Origin: Brevibacterium limosum
GTDB taxonomy: Bacteria; Actinomycetota; Actinomycetes; Actinomycetales; Brevibacteriaceae
DNA: 64,000 nucleotides
Reading direction: 5' to 3'
NCBI RefSeq assembly: GCF_011617705.1
Contig: NZ_CP050154.1
Span: forward strand, 62,001 to 126,000
This document shows positions 10,155 through 56,990 of the stretch, one piece after another. The notes below the pieces were generated by a model. That model saw nothing but the letters and a program-made list of their open reading frames with translations, was not told the DNA's origin and did no database searches. Position numbers and translations under genes: made by a program. Each line of letters starts with the position of its first letter. Positions within the stretch are counted from its first letter, which is position 1.

Positions 10155-11900
10155 TCAGGCGGTTTCGTCGGCGGCTGGGGGCTTGGTCGCCGGGTCGATG
10201 AGCACGTGGATGAGCGCGGGAGAATCCGATGCCAAGGCGCGGTCGAGCGCCGGCCCGAACTCCTCGGTCGTCTCGACGCGTTCCCCGTGCCCGGTCAGAC
10301 CGGACACAGAAGGCCCTGCCCCGTTCCCGGAATCGTCACCCACCGAGGAGACCCCGGAGCTGCTCAGATCGAACGCCGTCATCCAGGCCGCGAAGTCAGG
10401 GTTGACCATCCGCGTGCCCGAGGGCCGGCCCGGATAGTGGTTCTCCTGGTGGGACACGATCGTGCCGTACACACCGTTGTCGATGACGATGATGAGCGGC
10501 TTCGCTCCGTGGGCGAAGGCCGTGGCGATCTCCTGTCCGTTCATGAGGAAGTCCCCGTCGCCGCAGATCGCGACGGCTCGCCGGTCCGGGCACGCCAAGG
10601 ACGCGGCGACAGCTGCGGGAACGGCGAGCCCCATGGCTCCGTTGCGGGCCCCGACGAGGGTCGCAGGCCGTTCGTGCCGGATGAAGCGGTGCCCCCAGAT
10701 GGTGGCATTGCCCGCCCCGTAGGTCAGGATCGCTTCCCCGCCGAGGCGGTCGTCGAGGATCCCGATCGCCACCCCCAGATCGACCCCGGGCCGGTCTCCG
10801 GCGGTGGCTTGCGAATCGGCGGGTGCCGCCTCGGCGTCGGGCCTGTAAGCGGCGAACCGGGCCTGTGCTGCCACGCGCTCGTCCCTCCAGTCATCGGTTC
10901 GCGCACCGCGCGCAGCGGCGGCATCGAGACTGGTCAGAGTCTCGGTGAAGGACCGTGGTGACGCGAAGATCTGCTGATCGATCCGGCCGGCATGCTGTGT
11001 GGCTTCGGCGTCCAGGGATACGAGCACCGTCTCGGCGTCGAAGCCGATCGTGTAACCGTCGCTGGCCACATCGGAACGGGTACAGCCGACGAAGACGAGC
11101 AGGTCCGCCTCGGCGAACCCGGCCGCCACCGCATCGGCGCGACCATAGCCGAGCCACCCGGCCCATGCCGGCGAGGAATGCGGCAGCGCATCGTAGGCGC
11201 GCCAATCGCAGAAGACCGGCACCCTCGCCGAGGCGGCGAACCGAGCGAGATCGGCACCGCAGCCCGACTGCCAACCGTCACCGCCGAGGACGAACGCGGG
11301 ACGTTCGGCTGCCGCGATGCGGGAGGTCAGCGACTCGAGCTCGGTGTTCGCCGGGATCGGCGGGGCCGCCTCGGTGAGGGTCGGGGTGGGGGATTCGGTG
11401 AGACGGACGAGGACGTCCTCTGGCAGGCCGACGACGACGGGGCCGGGCCGACCGGACGCGGCGATGCGCAGGGCATCGGCGGTGAGCTCTCCGGCACGGT
11501 GCTCGTCATCGATGGTGAGCACGCGCTTCGCCGTCGAGGAGAACCATTCGGGCAGGCTGAACTCCTGGAACGATTCCCGCGACCTGTCGGTGAGCGGGAC
11601 GAGGCCGACGAAGAGGACGAGCGCGGTCGCATCCTGCCAGGCCGTGTGGACGGAGATCATCGCGTTCGCCGCACCGGGCCCGCGGGTGACCATGGCGATT
11701 CCCGGACGACCGGTCAGGCGCGATTCGGCCAGAGCCATGAACCCCGCACCGCCCTCCTGACGGCACACCACGGTGTCGATGGACGAGTCATAGAGCCCGT
11801 CGAGCACGTCGAGGTAGGACTCGCCGGGGACCGCGTAGACGCGTTCGATTCCCGCGCTCTCCAGGGTGTCGACGATGAGGTGGCCGGCGGAACGCGACAT
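10155..11900 (-). CDS. Thiamine-diphosphate-dependent decarboxylase/carboligase, acetolactate-synthase-like
   Basis: A 581-residue ThDP enzyme of the three-domain POX/ALS fold. The N-terminal PYR domain has GIERVYAVPGES and CRQEGGAGFMA, whose Glu matches the cofactor-activating glutamate. A central domain follows (AAAERPAFVLGGDGWQSG). The C-terminal PP domain carries the GDGDFLMNGQE...IIVIDNGVYGT metal/ThDP motif. The start ATG at 11900 follows AAAGGA. The glutamate argues against glyoxylate carboligase, which lacks it. The substrate is unknown; the operon partners are an MHS permease and an M20 amidohydrolase. Confidence 0.85.
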   Translation of the reverse strand: MSRSAGHLIVDTLESAGIERVYAVPGESYLDVLDGLYDSSIDTVVCRQEGGAGFMALAESRLTGRPGIAMVTRGPGAANAMISVHTAWQDATALVLFVGLVPLTDRSRESFQEFSLPEWFSSTAKRVLTIDDEHRAGELTADALRIAASGRPGPVVVGLPEDVLVRLTESPTPTLTEAAPPIPANTELESLTSRIAAAERPAFVLGGDGWQSGCGADLARFAASARVPVFCDWRAYDALPHSSPAWAGWLGYGRADAVAAGFAEADLLVFVGCTRSDVASDGYTIGFDAETVLVSLDAEATQHAGRIDQQIFASPRSFTETLTSLDAAAARGARTDDWRDERVAAQARFAAYRPDAEAAPADSQATAGDRPGVDLGVAIGILDDRLGGEAILTYGAGNATIWGHRFIRHERPATLVGARNGAMGLAVPAAVAASLACPDRRAVAICGDGDFLMNGQEIATAFAHGAKPLIIVIDNGVYGTIVSHQENHYPGRPSGTRMVNPDFAAWMTAFDLSSSGVSSVGDDSGNGAGPSVSGLTGHGERVETTEEFGPALDRALASDSPALIHVLIDPATKPPAADETA

Positions 11901-11965
11901 GGGGTGTCCTTTCGACGATCGAGCGGTGAGGGTCCGGGGCTTCCGGATCGGTGCTGTGCTGGTTC

Positions 11966-13297
11966 TCAGTGTTTGAAGCCGGGCAGGGCGACGCTCATGC
12001 GGGGAGCGACATATCCGGCGAAGGCGGTGAACAGGGAGAGGAAGGCGAGCATCGCCGCGGCCGGCCACCAGTGGTCACCGGCGGAGGCGACGAAGCTCGT
12101 GGCCAGCAGCGGGATGAATCCGGAGATCATGCCCGCGGCGTTCTGCGCCATCCCCACACCCGTGTAGCGGGTGGTGGCGGGGAACAGACCGGTGAGCACG
12201 GTGCCCGAGGCCGCGTAGGGCAGGGACAGGGTGGACACGGCCAGGGTCATGGCGATGACGACGAGGACCGGATTGCCGGACTCGAACATGAAGAACGCAG
12301 GCACCGCGACGGCCGCCGAGGCGACTCCACCCCAGAGGATGACCTTCGAGGCTCCGTACTTCGTGCCCAGGGCACCGCCCCAGAGGAGGGCGAGGATCTC
12401 GACGGCGGCCGCGACCATGCTGCCGAGCAGGAGGAGCGAATCGTCGTAGCCGAGGATGTTGACCCCGTACCAGACGCAGAACGCGGTGACGAGGTAGAAG
12501 CCGCCGACGCCGAGCAGGGCCGCGGCCATGCCGATGATGATCTGCTTCCACGAGTCACGGAAGGTCGTGCGGATGGGGCTCTTCTCGACCTCACCGGACT
12601 CTTCGAGCTGACGGAAGACCGGGGACTCCTCGAGGCGGGCACGCAGGTAGATGGCGACGACGAGCAGCGGCAGGGCGATGAGGAACGGGATCCTCCAACC
12701 GAATGAGTTGAAGCTGTCCTGGGAGAACACCAGGGTCATGACGAAGAAGCCGCCGGAGGAGAGGATCGTGCCGATCGGGGAGCCGATCTGCGGGATCGCC
12801 GCGTAACGGGCGCGCAGGTGGAGCGGGGCGTTCTCGACGACGAGGGTCATCGCGCCCGACCATTCGCCGCCGACGAAGAGTCCCTGGAGGATGCGCAGGA
12901 GCACGAGCAGGGCAGGGGCGGCGAAGCCGATCGCCGCATAGGTCGGCAGGAGGCCGATGAGGCCGGTGACGACGCCGATGCCGATGATCGTGATGAGCAG
13001 GACCTTCCGGCGCCCGATCTTGTCGCCCATGCGGCCGAAGATCAGACCGCCGATGGGGCGAGCGGCCAGACCGACGCCGAAGGTGGCGAACGAGGCCATC
13101 GCGGCGGCCGTGGCGTTCTCGCTGGTGAAGTACTGGACGTTGAAGACCAGGGCGGCCGCTGCCGAGAAGAGGAAGAAGTCGTACCACTCGAGGGCGGTGC
13201 CGATCAGCGCCCCGGCGGCGACCTTGTTCGCGTCCTTGATGCTCAGTTCCGTCGTGGCATTGAGCTCGGCGGACGCCGTGATGTTCTGCTCGCTCAT
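11966..13297 (-). CDS. MHS-family MFS permease (organic acid/osmolyte proton symporter)
   Basis: A 443-residue transporter with about twelve membrane segments. The N terminus has AGALIGTALEWYDFFLFSAAAA, the signature of metabolite:H+ symporters (ProP, ShiA, KgtP group). The MFS loop motif GRMGDKIGRRKVL lies between helices 2 and 3. GLFVGGEWSGA follows in helix 4. It is the first gene of the minus-strand operon 13297-8866 and should import its substrate. It is divergent from the PucR-type regulator at 13480, which probably controls it. The ATG at 13297 begins MSEQN. Confidence 0.87.
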   Translation of the reverse strand: MSEQNITASAELNATTELSIKDANKVAAGALIGTALEWYDFFLFSAAAALVFNVQYFTSENATAAAMASFATFGVGLAARPIGGLIFGRMGDKIGRRKVLLITIIGIGVVTGLIGLLPTYAAIGFAAPALLVLLRILQGLFVGGEWSGAMTLVVENAPLHLRARYAAIPQIGSPIGTILSSGGFFVMTLVFSQDSFNSFGWRIPFLIALPLLVVAIYLRARLEESPVFRQLEESGEVEKSPIRTTFRDSWKQIIIGMAAALLGVGGFYLVTAFCVWYGVNILGYDDSLLLLGSMVAAAVEILALLWGGALGTKYGASKVILWGGVASAAVAVPAFFMFESGNPVLVVIAMTLAVSTLSLPYAASGTVLTGLFPATTRYTGVGMAQNAAGMISGFIPLLATSFVASAGDHWWPAAAMLAFLSLFTAFAGYVAPRMSVALPGFKH

Positions 13298-46284: not shown

Positions 46285-47823
46285 TCAGGCAGGTGCCTTG
46301 TCGGGGTCGATGTCGACGATCGGCATGGAATCGATGTCCATGTCCGGGTTGTCGGCCTGGGTGCGAGCGAGCTCTTCGGCCTCCTCGTGGGTGTTCACCG
46401 TCGGGAATGAGCCCGGCAGCGGCCTGTGTGCCGATTCCTTCATGAGCAGCACGGCGACGAGCGCGACGACCGAGAAGAACATGATGTAGAACGCGGGCAT
46501 AAACGAGTTGCCGGTGAGGTCGATGAGTGCCTGAGCGAACAGCGGCGTGGTGCCGCCGAACAGGGAGACGCCGAGGTTGAACGTCAGCCCCATCGCACCG
46601 TAGCGCGACGCGGTCGGGAACAGAGCCGGCAGCGTCGAGGCCAGGCACGCGATGTAGAACCCGGCGGGCAGGGCGACCATGAACAGGGCCACGATCACCG
46701 CCCACATCTCACCGATCTGCATGACGGCGAAAGCGGGAACGATGAGGACGATCGTCATGATCGCGGCCGCGAGGAAGACGAACTTGCGTCCCAGCCTGTC
46801 GGAGAGCCTGCCGATGAGCGGCAGGCACAGCGACATGATGACGAGGACCGGGATCGTGGCCACGGCGGCCTGGACGTTCGAGACCTTGACGGTCTCTTCC
46901 AGATAGGTGGGCATGAAGCTCGTCAGTGCGTAGCCGACCGTCTGGGAGCCGGCGACGACGGCGATGCCGATGAGGATCTCCTTCCAGAAGTGGCGGACGA
47001 CGCCGATGAGACCGTGGCGGGCGTACTTGTCGTCCTTGACCTTGACGTCGCGGCCGGCTTCCTCGCTCGACTCGAAGCTCGGGGTCTCCGGGATCTTCAG
47101 ACGGAACCAGATGGCGACGGCACCGAGCGGGATGGCGATGAGGAACGGGATCCTCCAGCCGCCGTCGAGCATGGCGTTCTCGCCGTTGATGGACGTGGTG
47201 ACCACTGTTGTGATGGCCACGGTTCCGGCGCCGGCGGCGAAGCCGAGGTATGAGCCGACATCGAGCCAGGAGGCCCAGTAGCCGCGGGACTTGTCCGGAG
47301 CGAACTCGGAGACATACGTGGTGGCACCGGCGTACTCGCCGCCGGTGGAGAAGCCCTGGATCATCTTGAGCAGGTAGAGGGGGACGATCACCCACAGGCC
47401 GACCTGGGCTGCGGTAGGCAGGACGCCGATGAGGGCAGTGGCGGTGGCCATCGTGGCCATCGTGAAGAACAGGACCTTCTGTCGTCCGATCTTGTCGCCG
47501 AGCGGTCCGAGCACCATGCCGCCGAGCGGGCGGACGAGGAAGGACACGGCGAAGCCGAGGAGGGTCACGAGCAGACCCATCTGTCGATCCATGCCTTCGG
47601 TGAAGACCGAGGTCATCGTCACGGCCAGGTAGCCGTAGACACCGAAGTCGAACCATTCCATGAAGTTGCCGACTGTGGTGCCGCCGATGGCGGTGCGGAT
47701 CGATTTTGTTTCGACGACGATGCAGTCATCGGCCTCGAACCGCTTCTGTTTCTTGATCGCACGCCGTTCCCTGCGGGTCGGCTTCTTGTCTTTCTGCGCG
47801 GGTCTGTCGTGGGCCTCTGGCAT
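46285..47823 (-). CDS. MHS-family osmolyte/amino-acid permease (ProP-like)
   Basis: A 512-residue transporter with about twelve membrane segments and a very basic N-terminal tail (KDKKPTRRERRAIKKQKRF). IGGTTVGNFMEWFDFGVYGYLA and GPLGDKIGRQKVLFFTM are the MHS/ProP hallmarks, and GFSTGGEYAGATTYVSEFAP is the helix-4 signature. It probably imports proline, glycine betaine or a related betaine by proton symport. GAGGA precedes the ATG at 47823. It sits beside the demethylase-racemase genes, consistent with supplying them. Confidence 0.87.
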   Translation of the reverse strand: MPEAHDRPAQKDKKPTRRERRAIKKQKRFEADDCIVVETKSIRTAIGGTTVGNFMEWFDFGVYGYLAVTMTSVFTEGMDRQMGLLVTLLGFAVSFLVRPLGGMVLGPLGDKIGRQKVLFFTMATMATATALIGVLPTAAQVGLWVIVPLYLLKMIQGFSTGGEYAGATTYVSEFAPDKSRGYWASWLDVGSYLGFAAGAGTVAITTVVTTSINGENAMLDGGWRIPFLIAIPLGAVAIWFRLKIPETPSFESSEEAGRDVKVKDDKYARHGLIGVVRHFWKEILIGIAVVAGSQTVGYALTSFMPTYLEETVKVSNVQAAVATIPVLVIMSLCLPLIGRLSDRLGRKFVFLAAAIMTIVLIVPAFAVMQIGEMWAVIVALFMVALPAGFYIACLASTLPALFPTASRYGAMGLTFNLGVSLFGGTTPLFAQALIDLTGNSFMPAFYIMFFSVVALVAVLLMKESAHRPLPGSFPTVNTHEEAEELARTQADNPDMDIDSMPIVDIDPDKAPA

Positions 47824-48128: not shown

Positions 48129-49673
48129 TCAGTCCCTGACGACGCGATAGGTCTCGAGGCCGGGATCGACGGCACCCCGGACGTGGCCGGAGGGGCTCGC
48201 CGCCACGGCCTGGAGGAAGCCGGTCGTCTCGGCGGTGATCTCCTCACCGGGCAGCACATTGGGGATCCCGGGCGGGTACGCAGCCAGCGAGCTCACACTC
48301 ACCCGTCCGACCGCCTCGGCGGCGGTGACGAGTTCGGAACCGGCGAAATACGCCTCGCGCGGGGTCATGGCCAGTCGGCCGGCCGTGGGCAGCGGCGGGA
48401 GGGCGGCTGCCGGGCTCGTCGCCGAGGCGGAGTCTGCGGTTTCGAGGCGCAGGATCTCCAGGGCATCGATGAGGCGGCCGATGTCCGGGGACTTTCCGAT
48501 GCCGATGAGTGCGACGAGGGTGGTCGCCGTCGACATCTCGGGGAAGATGTCGAACTCCTCGGCCAGGCGCTTGCGCACCGTGTGACCGTCGAGTCCGGTG
48601 GCGGTGATGTCGATGGGCAGGCGGAACGGGTCGATGTCGACGACATCGGCATGGCCGAGGAACTCGCCGGACAGCAGGTGGTAGCGGTCGGTCGCCTCGA
48701 TCTGCGCGCGGATCTGACGGATGTTCTCCAGCGAATCCGTGATCGCCTCGGTCGAGGTCATGAGTTCGCGCCGGGCCAGGTCGATCGAGGCCATGAGGTG
48801 CGCGTTCTCGCTCGTCGAGGCGGTCATCATGAAGGCGCGGGCCAGCGCCGGTTCGAGACGATCGGCGAACTCGGTGTCGCCGAGGTGGAGCAGCGCGGAC
48901 TGAGTGAGCGAGCCCGCGAGTTTGTGCGTGCTCATGATGACGATGTCGGCGCCCTGGGTGACGGGGGAGGCCGGCAGGTCCGGGTGGAAGCCGAAGTGCG
49001 CACCCCAGGCGGCGTCGATGATCAGTGCCGCACCCGATTCGTGAGCCGCCTCGGCGAGGGCTTCGACGTCGGCGACGGCACCGAAGTAGCTCGGGGTCAC
49101 GAGGTAGACGGCGGTCACCGGCTCGGGATGGCTGCGAATGGCCCGGCGCAGGGCGTCGGGGGTGACGCCGTGGGCGATGCCGTTGACCTCGTCGACGTTG
49201 GGGTAGACGAAGCCGGGGTTGAGTCCGGCCAGCACGATGCCGTCGATGAAGCTCGAATGCGCGCTGCGCTGGGCGACGACGCCGGACCCGAGGGTGCCGA
49301 CGGCCAGGGCGGCCATGCGGTTGCCCTGCGAGGAGCCGTTGGTGAGGAACCAGGTGCGGCGGGCGCCCCAGGCCTCGGCGGCCAGGCGCAGGGCTTCGTC
49401 CTTCGGGGTATCGACGCCGAGGTCGATGCCGTCGAAGAGCGGGGGGATGTCCAGGGAGAGGGTGTGCTCGCCGAAGAATTCGGCCTGACCTGCGGAGATG
49501 CCCTCAGTCGTGCCGCCGTGTCCGGGGGTGGACAGGAACAGCGAGCTGCGGTCGGCCGCGTGTGCCAGAGCTTCGGCATAGGGTGCGCGGGACTGCGTGA
49601 GGGCGGGATGCGTCGGTGACCCCGAGGAGGTGTGCGGGGCCGGGGGCATGGGGGAGTCCTGGTGCACGGTCAT
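48129..49673 (-). CDS. Orn/Lys/Arg-decarboxylase-family PLP enzyme
   Basis: A 514-residue fold-type I PLP enzyme of the basic amino acid decarboxylase family without the N-terminal wing domain. STPGHGGT and FFGEHTLSLDIPPLFDGIDL near the N terminus, NGSSQGNRMAAL for the PLP phosphate, DAAWGAHFGFH, and the PLP lysine in STHKLAGSLTQS are all visible. It should decarboxylate lysine, ornithine or arginine to a polyamine precursor; which one cannot be read from sequence. The start ATG at 49673 has no ribosome site and may be leaderless. It is divergent from a LysR regulator. Confidence 0.87.
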   Translation of the reverse strand: MTVHQDSPMPPAPHTSSGSPTHPALTQSRAPYAEALAHAADRSSLFLSTPGHGGTTEGISAGQAEFFGEHTLSLDIPPLFDGIDLGVDTPKDEALRLAAEAWGARRTWFLTNGSSQGNRMAALAVGTLGSGVVAQRSAHSSFIDGIVLAGLNPGFVYPNVDEVNGIAHGVTPDALRRAIRSHPEPVTAVYLVTPSYFGAVADVEALAEAAHESGAALIIDAAWGAHFGFHPDLPASPVTQGADIVIMSTHKLAGSLTQSALLHLGDTEFADRLEPALARAFMMTASTSENAHLMASIDLARRELMTSTEAITDSLENIRQIRAQIEATDRYHLLSGEFLGHADVVDIDPFRLPIDITATGLDGHTVRKRLAEEFDIFPEMSTATTLVALIGIGKSPDIGRLIDALEILRLETADSASATSPAAALPPLPTAGRLAMTPREAYFAGSELVTAAEAVGRVSVSSLAAYPPGIPNVLPGEEITAETTGFLQAVAASPSGHVRGAVDPGLETYRVVRD

Positions 49674-49764: not shown

Positions 49765-50769
49765 ATGGAACCTCTGGATACTCGCGGGCTCACCGCTCTG
49801 CGTGCCGTCGCCGAGAACGGATCCGTGGCCGCGGCCGCCGCGCAGCTGCAGTGGAGCCAGCCGACGGTCAACCACCATCTGCGCAATCTGGAGCGGGCAC
49901 TGGGCGCCACTCTGCTCGATCGCACACCGCGCGGATCGCAGCCGACGACAGTGGGCAACCTCGTGGTGACCCGGGCTGTGGAGATCCTCGGTCTGTGTCA
50001 GCGACTCGGCGCCGAGGTGGCCCTCTGGCGGGAATCCCAGGCGGTGCCGGTGCGCATCGGAGCCGTGCCGACGGTCGGTGCCCGCGTCATCCCGCGCCTG
50101 CACGATCAGCTGCAGGTCCGCCCGAGGTGGCAGACCCGCGATGAGGCGGTCGCCGGCGACCGGACGGATGTCCTCACTGCGGCCCTGGACGTGACGATGG
50201 ACGAGCACGCGAAGCTCGTCTCCCGGCTCGAATCCGGGGATCTCGACCTCGCGCTGCTCGTGTCGACCGATCTCGATCGGACGTGGATTCCGGCGACGCT
50301 CACCGCCGCCCACCTGTATTCGGAGAGGCTGTTCCTGTGCGTGCCGAAGTCCATCGGCCCGATCGGCGTGGACGACCACGGGCTGCCGGACCTCAAGGCA
50401 CTCGTCTCACAGACCTGGGCGTTCAGCATCGACCCCGGTGACGCCATCGATGAGGTGGTCCGCTCCTTCTGTCTGAGCGCGGGATTCGAACCCCGGGTGG
50501 GGATGCGGATGGATGACTATGCGGCCATCAACCGGATGATCTCGGCCGGTCTGGCGGTGGCGATGATCCCCGAGTCCTCGCTGTCGACCGACCCGGACAT
50601 CGAGGTCATCCCGATGCCGCTGAGCGACTGTCGCCGCGATGTGCTGCTCGTGTCGCGTGCCGCACAGCCGCCGGCGCGCACCCGCCACGATCCGATCGTG
50701 GATGCGCATAACGCCGCCATCGCCGAGGTGGTCGCCGACGTCCGCACCGTCACCCGGCAGTGGCGGTGA
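49765..50769 (+). CDS. LysR-family regulator
   Basis: A 334-residue regulator. The N-terminal HTH is LTALRAVAENGSVAAAAAQLQWSQPTVNHHLRNLERALG, followed by DRTPRGSQPT and an effector domain. GGGAG lies four bases before the ATG at 49765. The position divergent from the decarboxylase gene, with a 91-base gap, makes that gene its likely target. The ligand is unknown. Confidence 0.88.
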   Translation: MEPLDTRGLTALRAVAENGSVAAAAAQLQWSQPTVNHHLRNLERALGATLLDRTPRGSQPTTVGNLVVTRAVEILGLCQRLGAEVALWRESQAVPVRIGAVPTVGARVIPRLHDQLQVRPRWQTRDEAVAGDRTDVLTAALDVTMDEHAKLVSRLESGDLDLALLVSTDLDRTWIPATLTAAHLYSERLFLCVPKSIGPIGVDDHGLPDLKALVSQTWAFSIDPGDAIDEVVRSFCLSAGFEPRVGMRMDDYAAINRMISAGLAVAMIPESSLSTDPDIEVIPMPLSDCRRDVLLVSRAAQPPARTRHDPIVDAHNAAIAEVVADVRTVTRQWR

Positions 50770-50803: not shown

Positions 50804-52189
50804 TCAGAGGGCGAGGAGTGCGGGCACGGTGAGCACGGCGACGTAGTAGCCCATGAACTGGACTCCCGCATGCATGCCGATGAACCGGTTGAACAGGCCG
50901 CCGACGAGTCCGACGGTGAGCGTCACACCCAGAGCCAACAGTCCGCCTTCATAGAGGCAGATGACGCAGATGAGCGCGGCGAAACCGGCGATGATCGCTT
51001 CGTGGGAGACCGACTTCATCACCCAGGTCGCCGCCCGATGGGCATTCGTCATCACGAAGGGGTAGGCGATGGCGACGGCGATGATCGCCGCGATGACGGA
51101 GAAGAGAGCGAACTCACCGGTCGTGAGCAGGTCATGGAGATTGTTCGTCGTTCCCGCTTCAGCATCGAGGGTATAGACGGGGGGAGCGTTGAACAGGGGT
51201 CCTGCGGGACCGGCCGCCATCGGTGACAGCGGCAGGCCGATCGCGATGAGCGGGATGAGAGTCTCGGCGATGTAGGTCGACTCTGTGGTTCCGTTGCGGA
51301 CAGTGATGACGGTGGTGAGTCGTTCGTACCCGTTCTTGACCCGGCTTCCGACGATCTCGCCCATGAGCACAGCCATGGCGACGGGGGAGAAGACGAAGGT
51401 CGCGCTGGTGATCGCAGCTGAACCGCTGGTGTATGCCAATTGCTTTCCGGTCAGCACCTTGAAGGGGTTCGGCATCCTCGATCCCCCTGCGGGCCGGACG
51501 TCGGGGGCAAGGTTGAATTCCCGCTTGCCCGACTGCTGCATCGAGCGGCGTCCGACGGGGGAGAGTGCCGCGAACAGGTCGAAGATGAGCGGCCCGGTGG
51601 CGATGCCGAGGAAGAACGAAGTGGTGAACGTCGCTTCCTTCTGCTCCATGATGAAGGCCTGCAGGCCGACGATGAGCAGGACGAAGGGGATGAGCCCGGC
51701 GATCGCAGCGAGCTTGCCCTTCGAGGTGTAGGCGACGAGGACGGCCGCGGCGATGAAGATCCAGGGCGCGGCAGCGCCGATCGCCTCGGCGAAAGGGGTG
51801 AGGACGAGGGCGAACACGATCGACAGCGGAATGGCGATGGCCACTGAGACGACTCCACCGGAGATCGCCTTCTGCAGCGCGATATGCGGGATTCCGAGCG
51901 ACCTCAGCAGCTGCGCCTCACGCAGCATCGGCACCGCTGTGGTGTCACCCGGGATTCCGAGGAGAGTCGTCGGTACGGCGTGGGAGATGTGTTTGGCGAT
52001 GATCGCGGCGAGGAAGAAGGCGATCACCCCGGCAGGCGGCACACCGATGAGGATGACAAGCAGCGCCAGCGGTGCCACGATCGCCGTCTCGTCCGTGCCC
52101 GAGATCAATCCGATGCCGGTGAAGAGCACCCCGGCCAGCAGCGCCATCCCGACTGCCCACAGGATCGGTTCGATGAGTTCCGCAGTCAC
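50804..52189 (-). CDS. TctA-family permease, candidate mevalonate importer
   Basis: A 461-residue membrane protein with about ten to twelve helices. HAVPTTLLGIPGDTTAVPML is the conserved TctA motif; GLPLSPMAAGPAGPLFNAPPVY is a second conserved-looking loop. TctA proteins are the large subunits of tripartite tricarboxylate transporters. It overlaps the upstream small membrane protein gene (ATGA) and is last in the operon with HMG-CoA reductase and lyase, so mevalonate or a related acid is the inferred substrate. No TctC binding protein is present in the window. Confidence 0.85.
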   Translation of the reverse strand: MTAELIEPILWAVGMALLAGVLFTGIGLISGTDETAIVAPLALLVILIGVPPAGVIAFFLAAIIAKHISHAVPTTLLGIPGDTTAVPMLREAQLLRSLGIPHIALQKAISGGVVSVAIAIPLSIVFALVLTPFAEAIGAAAPWIFIAAAVLVAYTSKGKLAAIAGLIPFVLLIVGLQAFIMEQKEATFTTSFFLGIATGPLIFDLFAALSPVGRRSMQQSGKREFNLAPDVRPAGGSRMPNPFKVLTGKQLAYTSGSAAITSATFVFSPVAMAVLMGEIVGSRVKNGYERLTTVITVRNGTTESTYIAETLIPLIAIGLPLSPMAAGPAGPLFNAPPVYTLDAEAGTTNNLHDLLTTGEFALFSVIAAIIAVAIAYPFVMTNAHRAATWVMKSVSHEAIIAGFAALICVICLYEGGLLALGVTLTVGLVGGLFNRFIGMHAGVQFMGYYVAVLTVPALLAL

Positions 52190-52608
52190 TGGTGCCCGCC
52201 CTTCTCTTGGGCGCGCGCCTCATGGTTGTCGACGAGGGCGTCGTAGAGACCGAGGGCTCGGACTTCGGCCTGAACCGCCGGACCGAGGTCACGGGGGTCA
52301 CCGAGATCCCCGTATTCCTCGACGACCTCGTCGATGATCTCCTGGCGGCTGCGGGTGTCGGCTGCCGAGGTGGTGATCACTCTCTTGGGTTTGAACAGAA
52401 GCCCGGAGATCACGGCGCCGACGATGCAGCCGACGATGCCGACGAGGAGCGCATAGGAGTGACCCAGCGCTTCGTCTCCTCCGGCGGCGAAGAGATGATC
52501 GGCGATGAGATAGGCCGGGACTGCTGTCCCGACGGCTATGGCGATACCGCCGATGAGATGTCTGGGGTCGACGGTGTCATTCCACACCTCGAGCAATTGC
52601 GGCATCAT
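52186..52608 (-). CDS. Small membrane protein paired with the TctA-like permease
   Basis: A 140-residue protein with two hydrophobic segments (about residues 18-37 and 52-72), then a charged cytosolic tail of about 65 residues (RSRQEIIDEVVEEYGDLG). Position and coupling with the TctA gene suggest the role of TctB, but TctB proteins usually have four helices and no such tail, so I do not call it TctB. No family recognised. It starts 48 bases after the lyase gene. Confidence 0.75.
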   Translation of the reverse strand: MMPQLLEVWNDTVDPRHLIGGIAIAVGTAVPAYLIADHLFAAGGDEALGHSYALLVGIVGCIVGAVISGLLFKPKRVITTSAADTRSRQEIIDEVVEEYGDLGDPRDLGPAVQAEVRALGLYDALVDNHEARAQEKGGHQ

Positions 52609-52656
52609 TGCCTGCCTTCTGTAGGCCGACGGCTGTCGGGAACGTGAACGATGGAA

Positions 52657-53592
52657 CTACCGGCCGAGGACGGCCGAGGATGTTGCGGATGGAAGCGGAA
52701 TGCCGAGCTGCTCGCCCAGCCACTGGCTGACCGTCGCCACGGCGTCGATGTCGACGCCGGTCGAGATGCCCAGACCCTGGAGCATCCAGAGAAGATCCTC
52801 GGTCGCCAGGTTTCCGGAGGCGGTGCGGGCGAAGGGGCAGCCACCGATCCCTCCTGCCGATGCGTCGAACTGACTGACACCTGCTTGAAGCGCGGAGTAG
52901 ACATTCGCAAGCGCCTGGCCATAGGTGTTGTGGGTGTGCAGGGCGATCCGATCGATCGGAATCCCGGCGCCGACCAGGCTATCAAGAACAGCGGTCACAT
53001 GACCGGGAGTCGCGGTTCCGATGGTATCGCCGAGCGAGATCGTCAGGCAGCCCGCATCGACGAGGCGACGCGCAGCTGTCGCGACGCGTTCAGGATCGAC
53101 CGCGCCTTCCCAGGGGTCCCCGAAGACCATTGACAGATAGCCGCGCACCCGCAGGCCCGCCGCAGTCGCCGCTCGTGCCACCTCGAGGCTGCGATCGGTG
53201 GTGTGATTGAGGGAACCGCCGAGGTTGGCCTGCGAGAATGATTCGGTGACGCTGATGAAGACCGAAGCATCCTTCGTTCCCGCTGCGACGGCATCATCGA
53301 GACCCCTCCGGTTCGGGACGAGGACGGAAAACGCGAGATCGGAGTCCAGGTCGAGCCCTGCAAGCACCGATCGGGTGTCGGCCATCTGGGGAACGGCCCG
53401 CGGAGAGACGAAGCTTCCGGCTTCGATGGTCTTCAGGCCGGCATCGGAGAGCCGCCGGATCAGTTCGAGCCGGGTTGAGACAGGAAGCGTGCGTGCTTGC
53501 GACTGCAGACCATCTCGAGCGCTGACTTCGCAGACACTGACCGCGGTCGGCAGGTCCGACGGCGCGAACTGCTGTGGAAGCTGTGCCGTCAT
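52657..53592 (-). CDS. mvaB: Hydroxymethylglutaryl-CoA lyase
   Basis: Cleaves HMG-CoA to acetyl-CoA and acetoacetate; 311 residues, the normal length. CEVSARDGLQ holds the catalytic Arg26-Asp27 pair, LHTHNTYGQALANV the metal-binding histidines, and GGIGGCPFARTASGNLATEDLLWML the flexible-loop cysteine signature of the family. Its ATG overlaps the stop of the HMG-CoA reductase gene by four bases, so reductase and lyase are made together for mevalonate breakdown. Confidence 0.93.
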   Translation of the reverse strand: MTAQLPQQFAPSDLPTAVSVCEVSARDGLQSQARTLPVSTRLELIRRLSDAGLKTIEAGSFVSPRAVPQMADTRSVLAGLDLDSDLAFSVLVPNRRGLDDAVAAGTKDASVFISVTESFSQANLGGSLNHTTDRSLEVARAATAAGLRVRGYLSMVFGDPWEGAVDPERVATAARRLVDAGCLTISLGDTIGTATPGHVTAVLDSLVGAGIPIDRIALHTHNTYGQALANVYSALQAGVSQFDASAGGIGGCPFARTASGNLATEDLLWMLQGLGISTGVDIDAVATVSQWLGEQLGIPLPSATSSAVLGR

Positions 53593-54863
53593 CGCGACCC
53601 AGCGGAGCGGAGTTCGTCGAGGATGGACTGGACTCTGTCGAACCGGAAGGCCTTCTCTTCGATCAGGCGGTCCACGATGATCGTGGTCTCCTCGGCGTTC
53701 GCTCCGGCAGAGGCAGCGAGGTTCTTCGCATGCAGTGACATGTGTCCGCGCTGCACGCCCTCGGTGGCGAGAACTCGCAGTGCCGCGAGGTTCTGCGCCA
53801 AGCCGGCGGCGACGATCATCTCGGCGAGATCCTGTGCGCTCGCCACCTCGGCGATCTGCAGAGCTGCGCGCGCGGCGGGATGGACCTTGGTGGCGCCTCC
53901 GACGAGGCCGACCGGCATGGGCATCTCGAGGGTGCCGACCAGGTCGCCGTCGGCATTCCTCTCAAACGTCGAAAGCGAAGAGTAGCGGCCGTCGACGAGC
54001 GCATGGGAGTGCGCTCCGGCCTCGACCGCGCGGGTGTCGTTCCCGGTGGCGAGGACGACTGCGGAGATGCCGTTCATGATGCCCTTGTTGTGAGTGGCCG
54101 CTCGATAGGGATCGGCCGCGGCGAGTCCGTAGGCATGGAGGATGTTGTCGATGACCTCGTCTCCGCCGAGCAGTTCCCGGTCGAAGACTGCCCGTGCCCG
54201 AGACAGTCGACGGTCCGCCTTGTTGGTGAGGATGCGCAGGAGTGCGTCGCCTCCGGCGATGGCTGCCACGGTCCCGGAGACCGCCTCAGCCATCGTGTTG
54301 ACCGCATTCGCCCCCATCGCGTCTCGGACATCGACAAGGAGGTGGACGAGAACATACGTCATCGTCCGCGCCTCGACGAGGCGGACCTCGATGCTCTTGA
54401 CTCCGCCGCCGACCTCGACGAGCTTGGGGTCCTGCGCATTGGCCAGGTCGATGATCTCTGCTTGGCGTTCGAGAATCCGTGTGCGCGCGGCCTGCGGGTC
54501 CGCCACGTTGATGAGCTGGATCTGCGCCTGCATGACGGGCTCGGTCGAGCTTGTGAAGAAGCCGCCGTGCGGACGTGCCATCCGTGCTGCATTGCTGGCG
54601 GCGGCGATGACCGAGGCCTCTTCGGTCGCCATGGGTACGAGCACGTCGGTGCCGTTGATCGTGAAGTTGGTGGCTGCGCCGAGAGGAAGCGAGAACACGC
54701 CGAAGATGTTCTCGCTGAGGTTGGCGGCGTCTTCGGGACCGAAAGCGTCCGCATCGAGCTGGCTGAACAGTTCGGCGTCGAGCCCGGTCGAGGCTGCCAC
54801 GGCTTTCCTGCGATCGTCGACCGACATGTTTCGGAAGTCGGCAATTCGGCTGTTCTCTGCCAT
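53589..54863 (-). CDS. mvaA: Class II (degradative) hydroxymethylglutaryl-CoA reductase
   Basis: Oxidises mevalonate with CoA and NAD+ to HMG-CoA; 424 residues without the membrane region of eukaryotic enzymes. Motifs: PMATEEASVIAAAS (catalytic Glu at 81/82), DVRDAMGANAVNTM (nucleotide loop), THNKGIMNG (Lys260), GNDTRAVEAG (Asp276) and QRGHMSLHA (His374). Lys260, Asp276 and His374 keep a constant offset of seven from Pseudomonas mevalonii Lys267, Asp283 and His381, and Asp139 falls where its NAD-selecting Asp146 would be. GGAG lies before the ATG at 54863. First enzyme gene of the operon. Confidence 0.93.
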   Translation of the reverse strand: MAENSRIADFRNMSVDDRRKAVAASTGLDAELFSQLDADAFGPEDAANLSENIFGVFSLPLGAATNFTINGTDVLVPMATEEASVIAAASNAARMARPHGGFFTSSTEPVMQAQIQLINVADPQAARTRILERQAEIIDLANAQDPKLVEVGGGVKSIEVRLVEARTMTYVLVHLLVDVRDAMGANAVNTMAEAVSGTVAAIAGGDALLRILTNKADRRLSRARAVFDRELLGGDEVIDNILHAYGLAAADPYRAATHNKGIMNGISAVVLATGNDTRAVEAGAHSHALVDGRYSSLSTFERNADGDLVGTLEMPMPVGLVGGATKVHPAARAALQIAEVASAQDLAEMIVAAGLAQNLAALRVLATEGVQRGHMSLHAKNLAASAGANAEETTIIVDRLIEEKAFRFDRVQSILDELRSAGSR

Positions 54864-55013
54864 CGTGTATCTCCAGTCAGGTCGTCTTCGGCCGACATCG
54901 GCCGTCGGTCGGAGTTCCTCCGCAGAGGTCAGTCAAACAATGCACGCGCGAATCTTCCATGTCCTTTTCGGACGTGAATGTCGCACAGCTATGGCTGTTC
55001 CAGACATAACGGT
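54864..55013 (-). promoter_or_regulatory. Leader/promoter region of the mevalonate operon
   Basis: The 150-base gap between the regulator gene and HMG-CoA reductase has no coding signal. It holds three symmetric elements: ACAGC-TATG-GCTGT at 54985-54998, GTCC-TTTTC-GGAC at 54961-54973 and CGGCCG-ACAT-CGGCCG at 54889-54904. The first is the best operator candidate; the last could form a hairpin in the leader. Confidence 0.4.
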
Positions 55014-56912
55014 CTAGAGAGATGACTTCAGCTTGTCCAAGCGGAGCGCGACCTGGAGGCGGAACGCCCGCTCCGGTGCCCTCCACTCCTGACCGAGCAC
55101 GAGATCGGCTCGCTCCAACCGCTGCTTGACGGTGTTGACATGCACTGACATCTGAGTCGCGGTTCTGCGGATGTTCATGCCGGACTCGAAATACTCTCGC
55201 AGCGTCGAGAGCAGCTCGGCCGAGTGGGTTCGGTCCCATCGGCGCAGCGGCTCGAGCATCCGTTGCATGAAACTCTCCGCCTGCTCCGGCACGGTGCCGA
55301 ACATTGCGGTGTAAGGCGCGAAGTCCTCCGTGGGAAAGATCCCTTCGCTGATGCCGAGGGAATTGAGGATGCGGATGCACGACCACATTTCGTCCTCGGC
55401 AGTGCGCAGCTGCTTCCGGTCGTAGTCGGTGTCGGAGATGATCACCAGCGAACTGTCGAGGGCGCCCGACTCTTCGAACAGCGTGTCCAAGGTGGGCCTG
55501 TCGCGGATCACGGTGCTGGGGAGGAGCACCGTGATCCCGGGGGACCGCTGCGTCATGAGAATTCGCGGCTCGACGCGGACCAGGCGAGCGCCGATGCGGT
55601 CATCGTTTTCGATGTCGCCCTGAATCGTCATCAGTCTCCACGGGCCGGAGAGACTGAAGCTGCCGGTTCGGGAGCGGGCCTCGAGCTCACTGAGATCACG
55701 TGTGCCGGCAATGATGTCGACTGCGAGTTCTCCACGGACTCGGTTCTCGGCATCGGCCCGGGCCTGTTCATTCATTCGGATGAGCGCGAGCGTCTGCGCC
55801 GCCTGGGCGACGATGTTCGCGTCGCCGTCCGCCGGTTCGTGGTTGAAACGGACGAACAGTCCGCTGTGCTGTCGGCGGTGGGACGCCACTGAGGCGACGT
55901 ACAGGTGCTGTGCACCAGCGACCTGTGCGCTTCGGCCCGTCGCCCGGCTGCGACTCAGCGCCGTTCGGACGTCGGCATTGTTCACCGTTATGCCGTCGAA
56001 GAACGTCTCATCGGCGAGGAAGCTCGGAGAGCCGAGGCGTCCGCTGTCGACGACGATCACGTCGGCCTCGAGCAATTCGGAGATGGCGTCGAGAACTGCC
56101 GGGACTCCCCGTCCCTGCAGGACAAGCTGCGTCAGCTGCTCCTCGACTTCGACAAGCCGTCGGAGGGTGCTGGCCTGCGCGGCTGCTGTCTCCTCGGCGT
56201 CCGCGGAGGCCTGGGCCGCCTCTGCGAGGTCTCCCATCAGCTGCGCCGTCTTCAGTACCACGGAAGCGTGGTCCGCGAGAGCCGACAGCAGGGTGATCTC
56301 GTCGGCGGTGAAGTCATGTGGGTAGCGGTTGGCCGCGAAGAGGGCGCCGAGGACTTCGCCGTCGACGACCATCGGCACTCCGAGGAGCGATTCCATGCGC
56401 TCGGCCTTCACCGCGGAGTCGACGCGTCTTTCGTGAGGCAGTCGGGTCAGATCGTAGTTCGACGTCCACTGTGCGGCGCGATCGCGCACGACCTGTCCTG
56501 CCAGGCCGACGCCGGGAGGCACGCGCAGCTCATTGAGATTCGCCGAGATCGCTCCGCGACTGGCCTGAACACGCAGGTCGTCGGTCTCCGGATAGTACTG
56601 GGAGAGGTAGGCGATATCGCATCCGATGAGTGTTCGGGCACGATTGACGAGCTTCTGCAGCAGCTTCTCGGTGTCTCGCACGCGGATGAGCTCCGAGGCG
56701 CTTTCGAGCAGGGCCGAACGCTCGTGATCCTTCTGCTTCCACCGGGTCATGGTCGCAGAGAGATCGGAGAAGGAGTCGATGAGGTCGGGGTGGTGCTCGA
56801 GACCGCGGGCAAGGGCCGCGCGGTCGAGATCGACTCCGCGGGAGAGGGCTCTGACGATCTCGGCCACGGCGGCCGCGGACACGGTCCCCGACTCATCATC
56901 GATCTCTGTCAT
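55014..56912 (-). CDS. GAF-domain PucR/CdaR-type regulator of the mevalonate genes
   Basis: A 632-residue regulator. Residues 1-70 are helical; a GAF domain spans about 80-220 (LIGCDIAYLSQYYPETDDL; VGLAGQVVRDRAAQWTSNY; LLGVPMVVDGEVLGALFAANR). A coiled-coil-like Ala/Glu segment (about 220-255) and a second sensory region lie in the middle. The C-terminal PucR HTH reads LLSTLREYFESGMNIRRTATQMSVHVNTVKQRLERA. It sits directly upstream of the mevalonate genes on the same strand and is the likely inducer-responsive activator; the ligand is inferred to be mevalonate or HMG-CoA. The ATG at 56912 begins MTEIDDES. Confidence 0.86.
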   Translation of the reverse strand: MTEIDDESGTVSAAAVAEIVRALSRGVDLDRAALARGLEHHPDLIDSFSDLSATMTRWKQKDHERSALLESASELIRVRDTEKLLQKLVNRARTLIGCDIAYLSQYYPETDDLRVQASRGAISANLNELRVPPGVGLAGQVVRDRAAQWTSNYDLTRLPHERRVDSAVKAERMESLLGVPMVVDGEVLGALFAANRYPHDFTADEITLLSALADHASVVLKTAQLMGDLAEAAQASADAEETAAAQASTLRRLVEVEEQLTQLVLQGRGVPAVLDAISELLEADVIVVDSGRLGSPSFLADETFFDGITVNNADVRTALSRSRATGRSAQVAGAQHLYVASVASHRRQHSGLFVRFNHEPADGDANIVAQAAQTLALIRMNEQARADAENRVRGELAVDIIAGTRDLSELEARSRTGSFSLSGPWRLMTIQGDIENDDRIGARLVRVEPRILMTQRSPGITVLLPSTVIRDRPTLDTLFEESGALDSSLVIISDTDYDRKQLRTAEDEMWSCIRILNSLGISEGIFPTEDFAPYTAMFGTVPEQAESFMQRMLEPLRRWDRTHSAELLSTLREYFESGMNIRRTATQMSVHVNTVKQRLERADLVLGQEWRAPERAFRLQVALRLDKLKSSL

Positions 56913-56990
56913 GAGACCAGTGTCGCAGGGGCTCGGTGCCTCTGCCGCACCCGGCATCGGACGGATGATTCGCCCGGGCCGTCGTCGCCG

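Follow-up and report, generated by a model that had tools for sequence, protein, structure and literature searches.

Five genes on the minus strand of a 64,000-nucleotide stretch of the Brevibacterium limosum genome (the window; C1:62001-126000 of a single 4.25 Mb contig) are best explained as an inducible mevalonate uptake-and-breakdown unit, a reading that we hold with a probability of roughly 0.8 from sequence comparisons. In minus-strand order they encode a PucR-type regulator, a class II 3-hydroxy-3-methylglutaryl coenzyme A (HMG-CoA) reductase, an HMG-CoA lyase, a 140-residue membrane protein and a TctA-like permease (Table 1). We propose that the permease and its two-helix partner, given their linkage to the enzymes, would import mevalonate without a binding protein. 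The reductase would then run oxidatively, as its family, residues and context suggest, converting mevalonate, CoA and 2 NAD+ to HMG-CoA and 2 NADH, and the lyase, judged by its family, would split HMG-CoA into acetyl-CoA and acetoacetate. Acetoacetate could reach central metabolism through a 3-oxoacid CoA-transferase encoded elsewhere, for which the genome offers one pair of CoA-transferase subunits (TIGR02428/TIGR02429) as homologues. The PucR-type regulator would sense mevalonate or a product and activate the operon from tandem 15-bp sites. Because the same genome has a separate mevalonate-making operon, the catabolic unit would be expected to switch on only when mevalonate is abundant. The balance of evidence tilts slightly towards a further proposal, that mevalonate is the dedicated substrate of an undescribed transporter family that has two subunits, the permease and the two-helix protein, and works independently of a binding protein.

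Catabolism is favored because the lyase and transporter genes are linked to the reductase, because mevalonate kinase is missing over its cut-off from nearly all related bacterial genomes surveyed, and because biosynthesis in B. limosum has its own class I reductase. The five open reading frames and their families (HMG-CoA_red, HMGL-like, TctA, and GAF plus PucR helix-turn-helix, HTH), named in an original prediction made from the window, were all confirmed, the families by profile search, as were both of the 4-base overlaps it described, reductase/lyase at 53589-53592 and small protein/permease at 52186-52189. From the first, in which the lyase start overlaps the reductase stop on the same strand, these two genes are predicted to share one transcription unit. 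The regulator start proposed at 56912 is probably the real one, giving 632 residues, the length of the homologue in Brevibacterium aurantiacum XU54 (L002), the closest named relative, whose reductase is 87% identical; other Brevibacterium genomes reach 96%. The gene set is not a chance association: 25 of 30 Brevibacterium loci, counting that of B. limosum, have the regulator, reductase and lyase along with the small protein (flanks of 1.5 kb, too short for the whole permease). The class II reductase profile matches 32 of 57 genomes of the genus, one match being a contig-end fragment and five genomes having two copies. For the wider comparison we took the best 80 of at least 587 reductase matches (27 archaeal, 7 Chloroflexota and 46 from other bacteria, with some archaeal and Chloroflexota loci on short contigs). 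Gene counts across these loci come from tblastn, a simple gene caller having misplaced or missed genes, except for the length of the L002 regulator. The lyase, which scores 342.8 bits against NF004283 (cut-off 246), accompanies the reductase in 25 of the 46 bacterial (non-Chloroflexota) loci, versus none of the 34 archaeal and Chloroflexota loci in the stretches compared; for the small protein and permease the figures are 23 and none.

By profile the reductase belongs to the degradative type, scoring 422.5 bits against the equivalog TIGR00532 (cut-off 260) and 56.7 bits against the NADPH model TIGR00533 (cut-off 442), and its closest solved structures are 6dio and the Pseudomonas mevalonii enzyme 1qax (423 bits), with 6p7k third. 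Lys260, Asp276 and His374 are invariant in all 81 aligned reductases, and Glu82 is present in 80, with one gap. As predicted, the first three residues align with P. mevalonii Lys267, Asp283 and His381, which we take to have catalytic roles. The NAD-selecting residue has to be moved from its predicted place at Asp139: position 139 is variable, with 10 different residues, whereas Asp146 of P. mevalonii, presumably the selecting residue of that enzyme, aligns in the printed alignment with window Asp145, and position 145 is Asp in 80 of 81 reductases. Asp145 fits NAD use and says nothing on the direction of flux. In a quick tree of 81 rows, drawn without Firmicute biosynthetic class II enzymes, the window reductase falls in one group with 13 further Actinomycetota enzymes (SH-aLRT 99), separate from those of archaea and Chloroflexota.

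The window contains none of the six GHMP-kinase matches in the genome, and the locus does not have the make-up of a biosynthetic operon. The earlier statement that no mevalonate kinase genes are present thus stands for the window and fails for the genome, which has a biosynthetic operon, mvk-mvaD-pmk-fni-HMGR-HMGS, at C1:4192176-4198944 (L108:6177-12944). Its products are a mevalonate kinase (230 bits, cut-off 163), diphosphomevalonate decarboxylase, phosphomevalonate kinase, type 2 isopentenyl diphosphate isomerase, class I HMG-CoA reductase and HMG-CoA synthase. The class I enzyme matches 6hr7 and 1dq8 at E <1e-53 and scores 271 bits against TIGR00533, under the cut-off, and BLAST found no significant similarity between it and the window reductase (E 0.44). 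Dxr, the sole gene of the methylerythritol phosphate route that was searched for, is present as well, so that two isoprenoid routes and mevalonate catabolism probably coexist in one genome. With Dxr and the class I reductase at hand, the window reductase might, on paper, be dispensable for making isoprenoids. A survey of the genomes of 50 of the 80 loci found mevalonate kinase over the cut-off in 1 of 46 bacterial (non-Chloroflexota) genomes with the reductase (L008, Brevibacterium 239c), several of the 46 being metagenome assemblies whose completeness is not given, and in all 4 of the controls taken from the 34 archaeal and Chloroflexota genomes. Because 45 of 46 genomes have no kinase over the cut-off, this reductase type in these bacteria would usually sit where isoprenoid synthesis cannot be fed. 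The claim of catabolism rather than synthesis is therefore well supported, on other grounds than the Asp at the NAD site and the missing kinase that were first offered for it.

The permease matches PF01970 (TctA) over nearly its full length, at 68.3-68.8 bits (cut-off 28.9), and all 24 members of its family match at E <= 0.001. Tripartite tricarboxylate transporters (TTT) consist of TctA, with 12 transmembrane segments, TctB, with four, and TctC (PMC5812351). We do not class the pair as a TTT system because there is no TctC, no TctB and a very distant TctA score. Four other TctA proteins in the B. limosum genome score 433-530 bits, far above the window permease, and each of the four TctC matches lies <1 kb from one of them; a genome-wide search gave no TctC match near the window permease. 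The small protein is predicted to form two membrane helices (15-41, 46-71), as against four in TctB, followed by a soluble tail (AlphaFold model pLDDT 83), and has no Pfam or NCBIfam match at E <= 0.001. No TctB match was found for it, although a TctB of the same genome, searched as a control, matches PF07331 at 66.5 bits. Its 24 aligned members give no convincing Pfam match (best E 0.0013), and TctB is not among the weak families listed for them at E <= 1 (25 of 30). Pro74-Lys75-Arg76 is invariant in this alignment, and all 23 loci that have the pair place the small-protein gene immediately upstream of that for the permease. Models of both proteins found no match in the PDB at E <= 0.001. We propose that the pair works as an ion-coupled permease without a binding protein, an arrangement for which the TTT review of 2018, in its remarks on bacterial TctA without TctC, allows as a rare, unresolved possibility (PMC5812351).

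Linkage ties this pair to mevalonate. Permease-bearing loci span Actinomycetota, Pseudomonadota (Pseudomonas, Caballeronia, Variovorax, Rhizobium and others) and two Bacillota, Sporosarcina and Clostridium (38% identity). A transporter unlike that of the Pseudomonas system had been predicted; the comparison speaks otherwise, since Pseudomonas loci L042, L044 and L080 have the same small protein and permease close to reductase and lyase (P. mevalonii itself was outside the comparison). We also reject the idea that the transporter is an actinobacterial novelty, as it occurs in Pseudomonadota and Bacillota and on plasmids. Searching with the permease alone recovered it in 2 of 396 Actinomycetota genomes (B. 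limosum and G050), both with an adjacent reductase, and in 9 of 399 genomes of the order of G436 (Caballeronia); 7 of these matches are full-length, all with small protein and reductase adjacent, and the other 2 are fragments of <20 bits with an internal stop. A search of plasmids gave 6 records, all with the reductase. Every full-length match (15 of 15) has an adjacent reductase, as do all 12 outside the three genomes already in the profile (B. limosum, G436 at L074 and G425 at L046), with a profile and plasmid query built from reductase-linked members, which favors that subfamily, and at most four candidates per genome scored in the Actinomycetota and G436-order profile searches. Distances among 24 taxa are correlated (Spearman 0.74 for permease-reductase, 0.82 for permease-small protein and 0.58 for small protein-reductase; each reached in 0 of 2000 permutations); shared vertical descent alone could give such correlations too. 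On four plasmids of Roseomonas, Lichenicola and Rhizobium (L159, L160, L161 and L163) a MocR gene stands beside a set of reductase, small protein and permease, with the lyase after the permease or, in Rhizobium, divergent. Four of the plasmid copies already carry the annotations degradative reductase, hypothetical protein, TTT permease and lyase. Three of the four plasmid stretches (11 kb each) also contain transposase genes.

Control of the unit differs between lineages. The PucR HTH of the regulator matches PF13556 at 64 bits, and 13 of 14 Actinomycetota loci, together with L010 and L012, show a PucR-type match; the gene is on the opposite strand in L003 and L011 and farther away in L008 and L011. 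Pseudomonadota have instead a MocR-type regulator, with GntR and aminotransferase domains, in 24 of 28 loci, the Pseudomonas loci L042, L044 and L080 among them, which bears out the prediction that the regulator is unlike that of the Pseudomonas system. On these comparisons, regulator type is lineage-specific. Upstream of the reductase, two copies of GTCYGRAAMRGMCAT (54991-55005 and 54959-54973) stand 32 bp apart. With one mismatch allowed the motif has only these 2 matches in the window, where 0.13 are expected, and two were reached in none of 100 shuffles. Pairs of at least 12/15 each at exactly 32 bp occur in 16 of 25 Brevibacterium upstream regions, in scores that are partly circular, the consensus having been read from the window copies and the genus alignment; shuffles for this genus test preserved base composition only, and spacing lay outside it. 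The 9 regions without a pair at 12/15 include one (L132) from another cluster type. Outside the genus the motif is weak, with two copies of 12/15 in L007 and copies of 13 and 11 in L009, each pair 33 bp apart. An operator shared with the biosynthetic operon was considered and rejected, the best copies in L108 being 12/15 and none lying upstream of that operon. The tandem 15-bp motif is likely to be the operator of the PucR-type regulator.

Table 1. Features of the putative mevalonate unit in the B. limosum window.
Feature	Position	Strand	Remarks
PucR/CdaR-type regulator	55014..56957	-	GAF domain and C-terminal PucR HTH (HTH_30); probable start ATG 56912 (632 aa)
Candidate operator copy 1, GTCTGGAACAGCCAT	54991..55005	-	Directly past regulator stop
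Candidate operator copy 2, GTCCGAAAAGGACAT	54959..54973	-	GTCC/GGAC inverted repeat, 32 bp from copy 1
Class II HMG-CoA reductase, degradative type (mvaA-like)	53589..54863	-	TIGR00532; Glu82, Asp145 (NAD site), Lys260, Asp276, His374
HMG-CoA lyase (mvaB-like)	52657..53592	-	NF004283; PDB matches 2ftp, 2cw6
Two-helix membrane protein, 140 aa	52186..52608	-	Candidate importer accessory subunit; no described family
TctA-like permease, without TctB/TctC	50804..52189	-	PF01970; candidate mevalonate importer

Several observations weigh against an uptake-and-breakdown unit. The Asp at the NAD site was rejected as proof of catabolism, since all 27 archaeal homologues and 6 of the 7 from Chloroflexota (49-56% identical to the window reductase) share it, and the absence of mevalonate kinase was rejected as an argument for B. 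limosum, whose genome has one; 21 of the 46 bacterial genomes have sub-cut-off GHMP-kinase matches, and the metagenome assemblies in that survey, like the lack of Firmicute biosynthetic enzymes in the tree, count on the same side. The permease is absent from 23 of the 46 bacterial loci, and of the 23 loci that carry it 15 have the lyase in the stretch and 8 do not. The reductase profile matches 11 of 396 Actinomycetota genomes, 4 of them at full length, and 2 of those 4 are without the permease. Two Actinomycetota, G087 (L127) and G109 (L128), have a full-length class II reductase (44% identity) in stretches with no match to the window lyase, small protein, permease or regulator. Mevalonate as the permease substrate is something that we infer from linkage alone, with the bias of the permease profile and the ceiling on candidates already described.

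It is unlikely, in our estimate, that the pathway degrades and the permease imports a related compound such as mevalonolactone, free 3-hydroxy-3-methylglutarate or a larger isoprenoid-derived acid. The TTT review gives a range of carboxylates as substrates of TctA relatives (PMC5812351), and sister clusters with family III CoA-transferase, hydantoinase A/B or, once, a gluconolactonase-like protein hint at other entry points. Yet the CoA-transferase occurs in 1 of 23 permease-bearing loci (L080), a lactonase of the L003 type in none of the other 79 loci, and with 3-hydroxy-3-methylglutarate as substrate the reductase would be idle. Smaller still is the chance that the unit mainly recycles or limits the cell's own mevalonate, as overflow control, or reclaims mevalonate that has leaked. 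The biosynthetic operon in the same genome and the kinase over the cut-off in Brevibacterium 239c are what such a role would lead one to look for, but the other 45 genomes in the survey, B. aurantiacum L002 included, have none over the cut-off, and the unit is therefore usually found where mevalonate is not made. A role for the class II reductase in biosynthesis, as a second enzyme linked to NADH, seems very improbable. The archaeal and Chloroflexota homologues do share its Asp, 4 of 4 of their genomes tested out of 34 have mevalonate kinase, and so does B. limosum, which tells against breakdown. Set against this are the lyase and transporter in its operon, the class I reductase already serving in the biosynthetic operon, the kinase survey and the grouping of the window enzyme with its 13 Actinomycetota relatives. 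An inducible unit for mevalonate uptake and breakdown thus remains the reading that we prefer.

Reductase loci without the TctA-like permease show other arrangements. In L034, L040, L053 and L068 the reductase has DctM/DctP TRAP genes as neighbors, L029 has a weaker DctM match at a distance of ~4 kb, and MFS genes are near the reductase in L003, L008, L030 and L066; as an alternative transporter the MFS genes make a weak case, since MFS matches also lie 5-10 kb away in the permease-bearing L002, L077 and L081. Family III CoA-transferase is present in 12 loci, with a weak partial match in L024 and with L080 having the permease as well, and hydantoinase A/B in L003, L004, L008 and L011. A second cluster type, found in L003, L004, L008, L010, L011, L012, L016, L029, L030 and L066 and lacking the permease, combines class II reductase with family III CoA-transferase, often lyase, and sometimes hydantoinase A/B or amidohydrolase; it may feed HMG-CoA from another substrate. 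In L003 (Streptomyces) an SMP-30/gluconolactonase-like gene at 11321-12451 separates reductase and lyase, and its product could open mevalonolactone. The Brevibacterium genomes with two class II reductases each are G846, G882, G885, G887 and G893, and the G893 copy at L132 has a lyase and no small-protein match in range. In the window itself, the permease ends 34 bases from a convergent LysR-type gene (49765-50769), and beyond it a ProP-like metabolite/H+ symporter and an Orn/Lys/Arg-decarboxylase-like protein are encoded side by side (46285-47823 and 48129-49673), with no link to the mevalonate unit seen.

The mvaA-mvaB operon of P. mevalonii encodes an NAD-dependent class II reductase and an HMG-CoA lyase for mevalonate catabolism. 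The B. limosum unit resembles it in both enzymes, in reductase class, catalytic residues, the Asp at the NAD site and gene adjacency, and differs in its actinobacterial host, PucR-type regulator, linked permease pair and host biosynthetic operon, the P. mevalonii transporter being outside the comparison. The HMG-CoA reductase of Burkholderia cenocepacia was reportedly characterized as oxidative by Schwarz et al. in 2014. A B. cenocepacia record, L162, whose reductase may be that enzyme or another, has the same reductase-small protein-permease set, with a MocR-type regulator and no lyase match within the 11 kb examined. The structure 6p7k is the B. cenocepacia enzyme according to a figure legend (PMC12292504). 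A mevalonate biosynthetic cluster described for Brevibacterium clade IV-A (PMC10588199) contains the same gene kinds as the B. limosum biosynthetic operon; unlike the catabolic unit, it represents a separate locus with a class I reductase and the opposite direction of flux. The enzymes of the window exemplify a known kind of pathway in an actinobacterium. What looks new is the permease pair as candidate mevalonate importer, control by a PucR-type protein at tandem sites, and coexistence with biosynthesis; among the open-access papers that our searches listed, none deals with the permease pair or with a cluster for mevalonate catabolism in an actinobacterium, subscription papers on P. mevalonii being outside the search.

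If the proposal is correct, no natural mevalonate importer would have been identified at the gene level before this one, which is distributed across Actinomycetota, Pseudomonadota and Bacillota and is carried by chromosomes as well as plasmids. The question of whether TctA proteins of bacteria can do without TctC would be settled too, the permease family being a many-genome case of TctA without TctC that comes with a predicted substrate. An Escherichia coli mevalonate auxotroph has been grown on external mevalonate (PMC3690029), and some entry without a dedicated importer therefore exists. Isoprenoid engineering could make direct use of a natural importer from bacteria. An engineered AraC variant has served as a mevalonate sensor (PMC3690029), and the PucR-type regulator could serve as a natural one. 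For B. limosum itself, a genome with both mevalonate-making and mevalonate-degrading genes would offer a clean case for learning how opposing fluxes stay apart.

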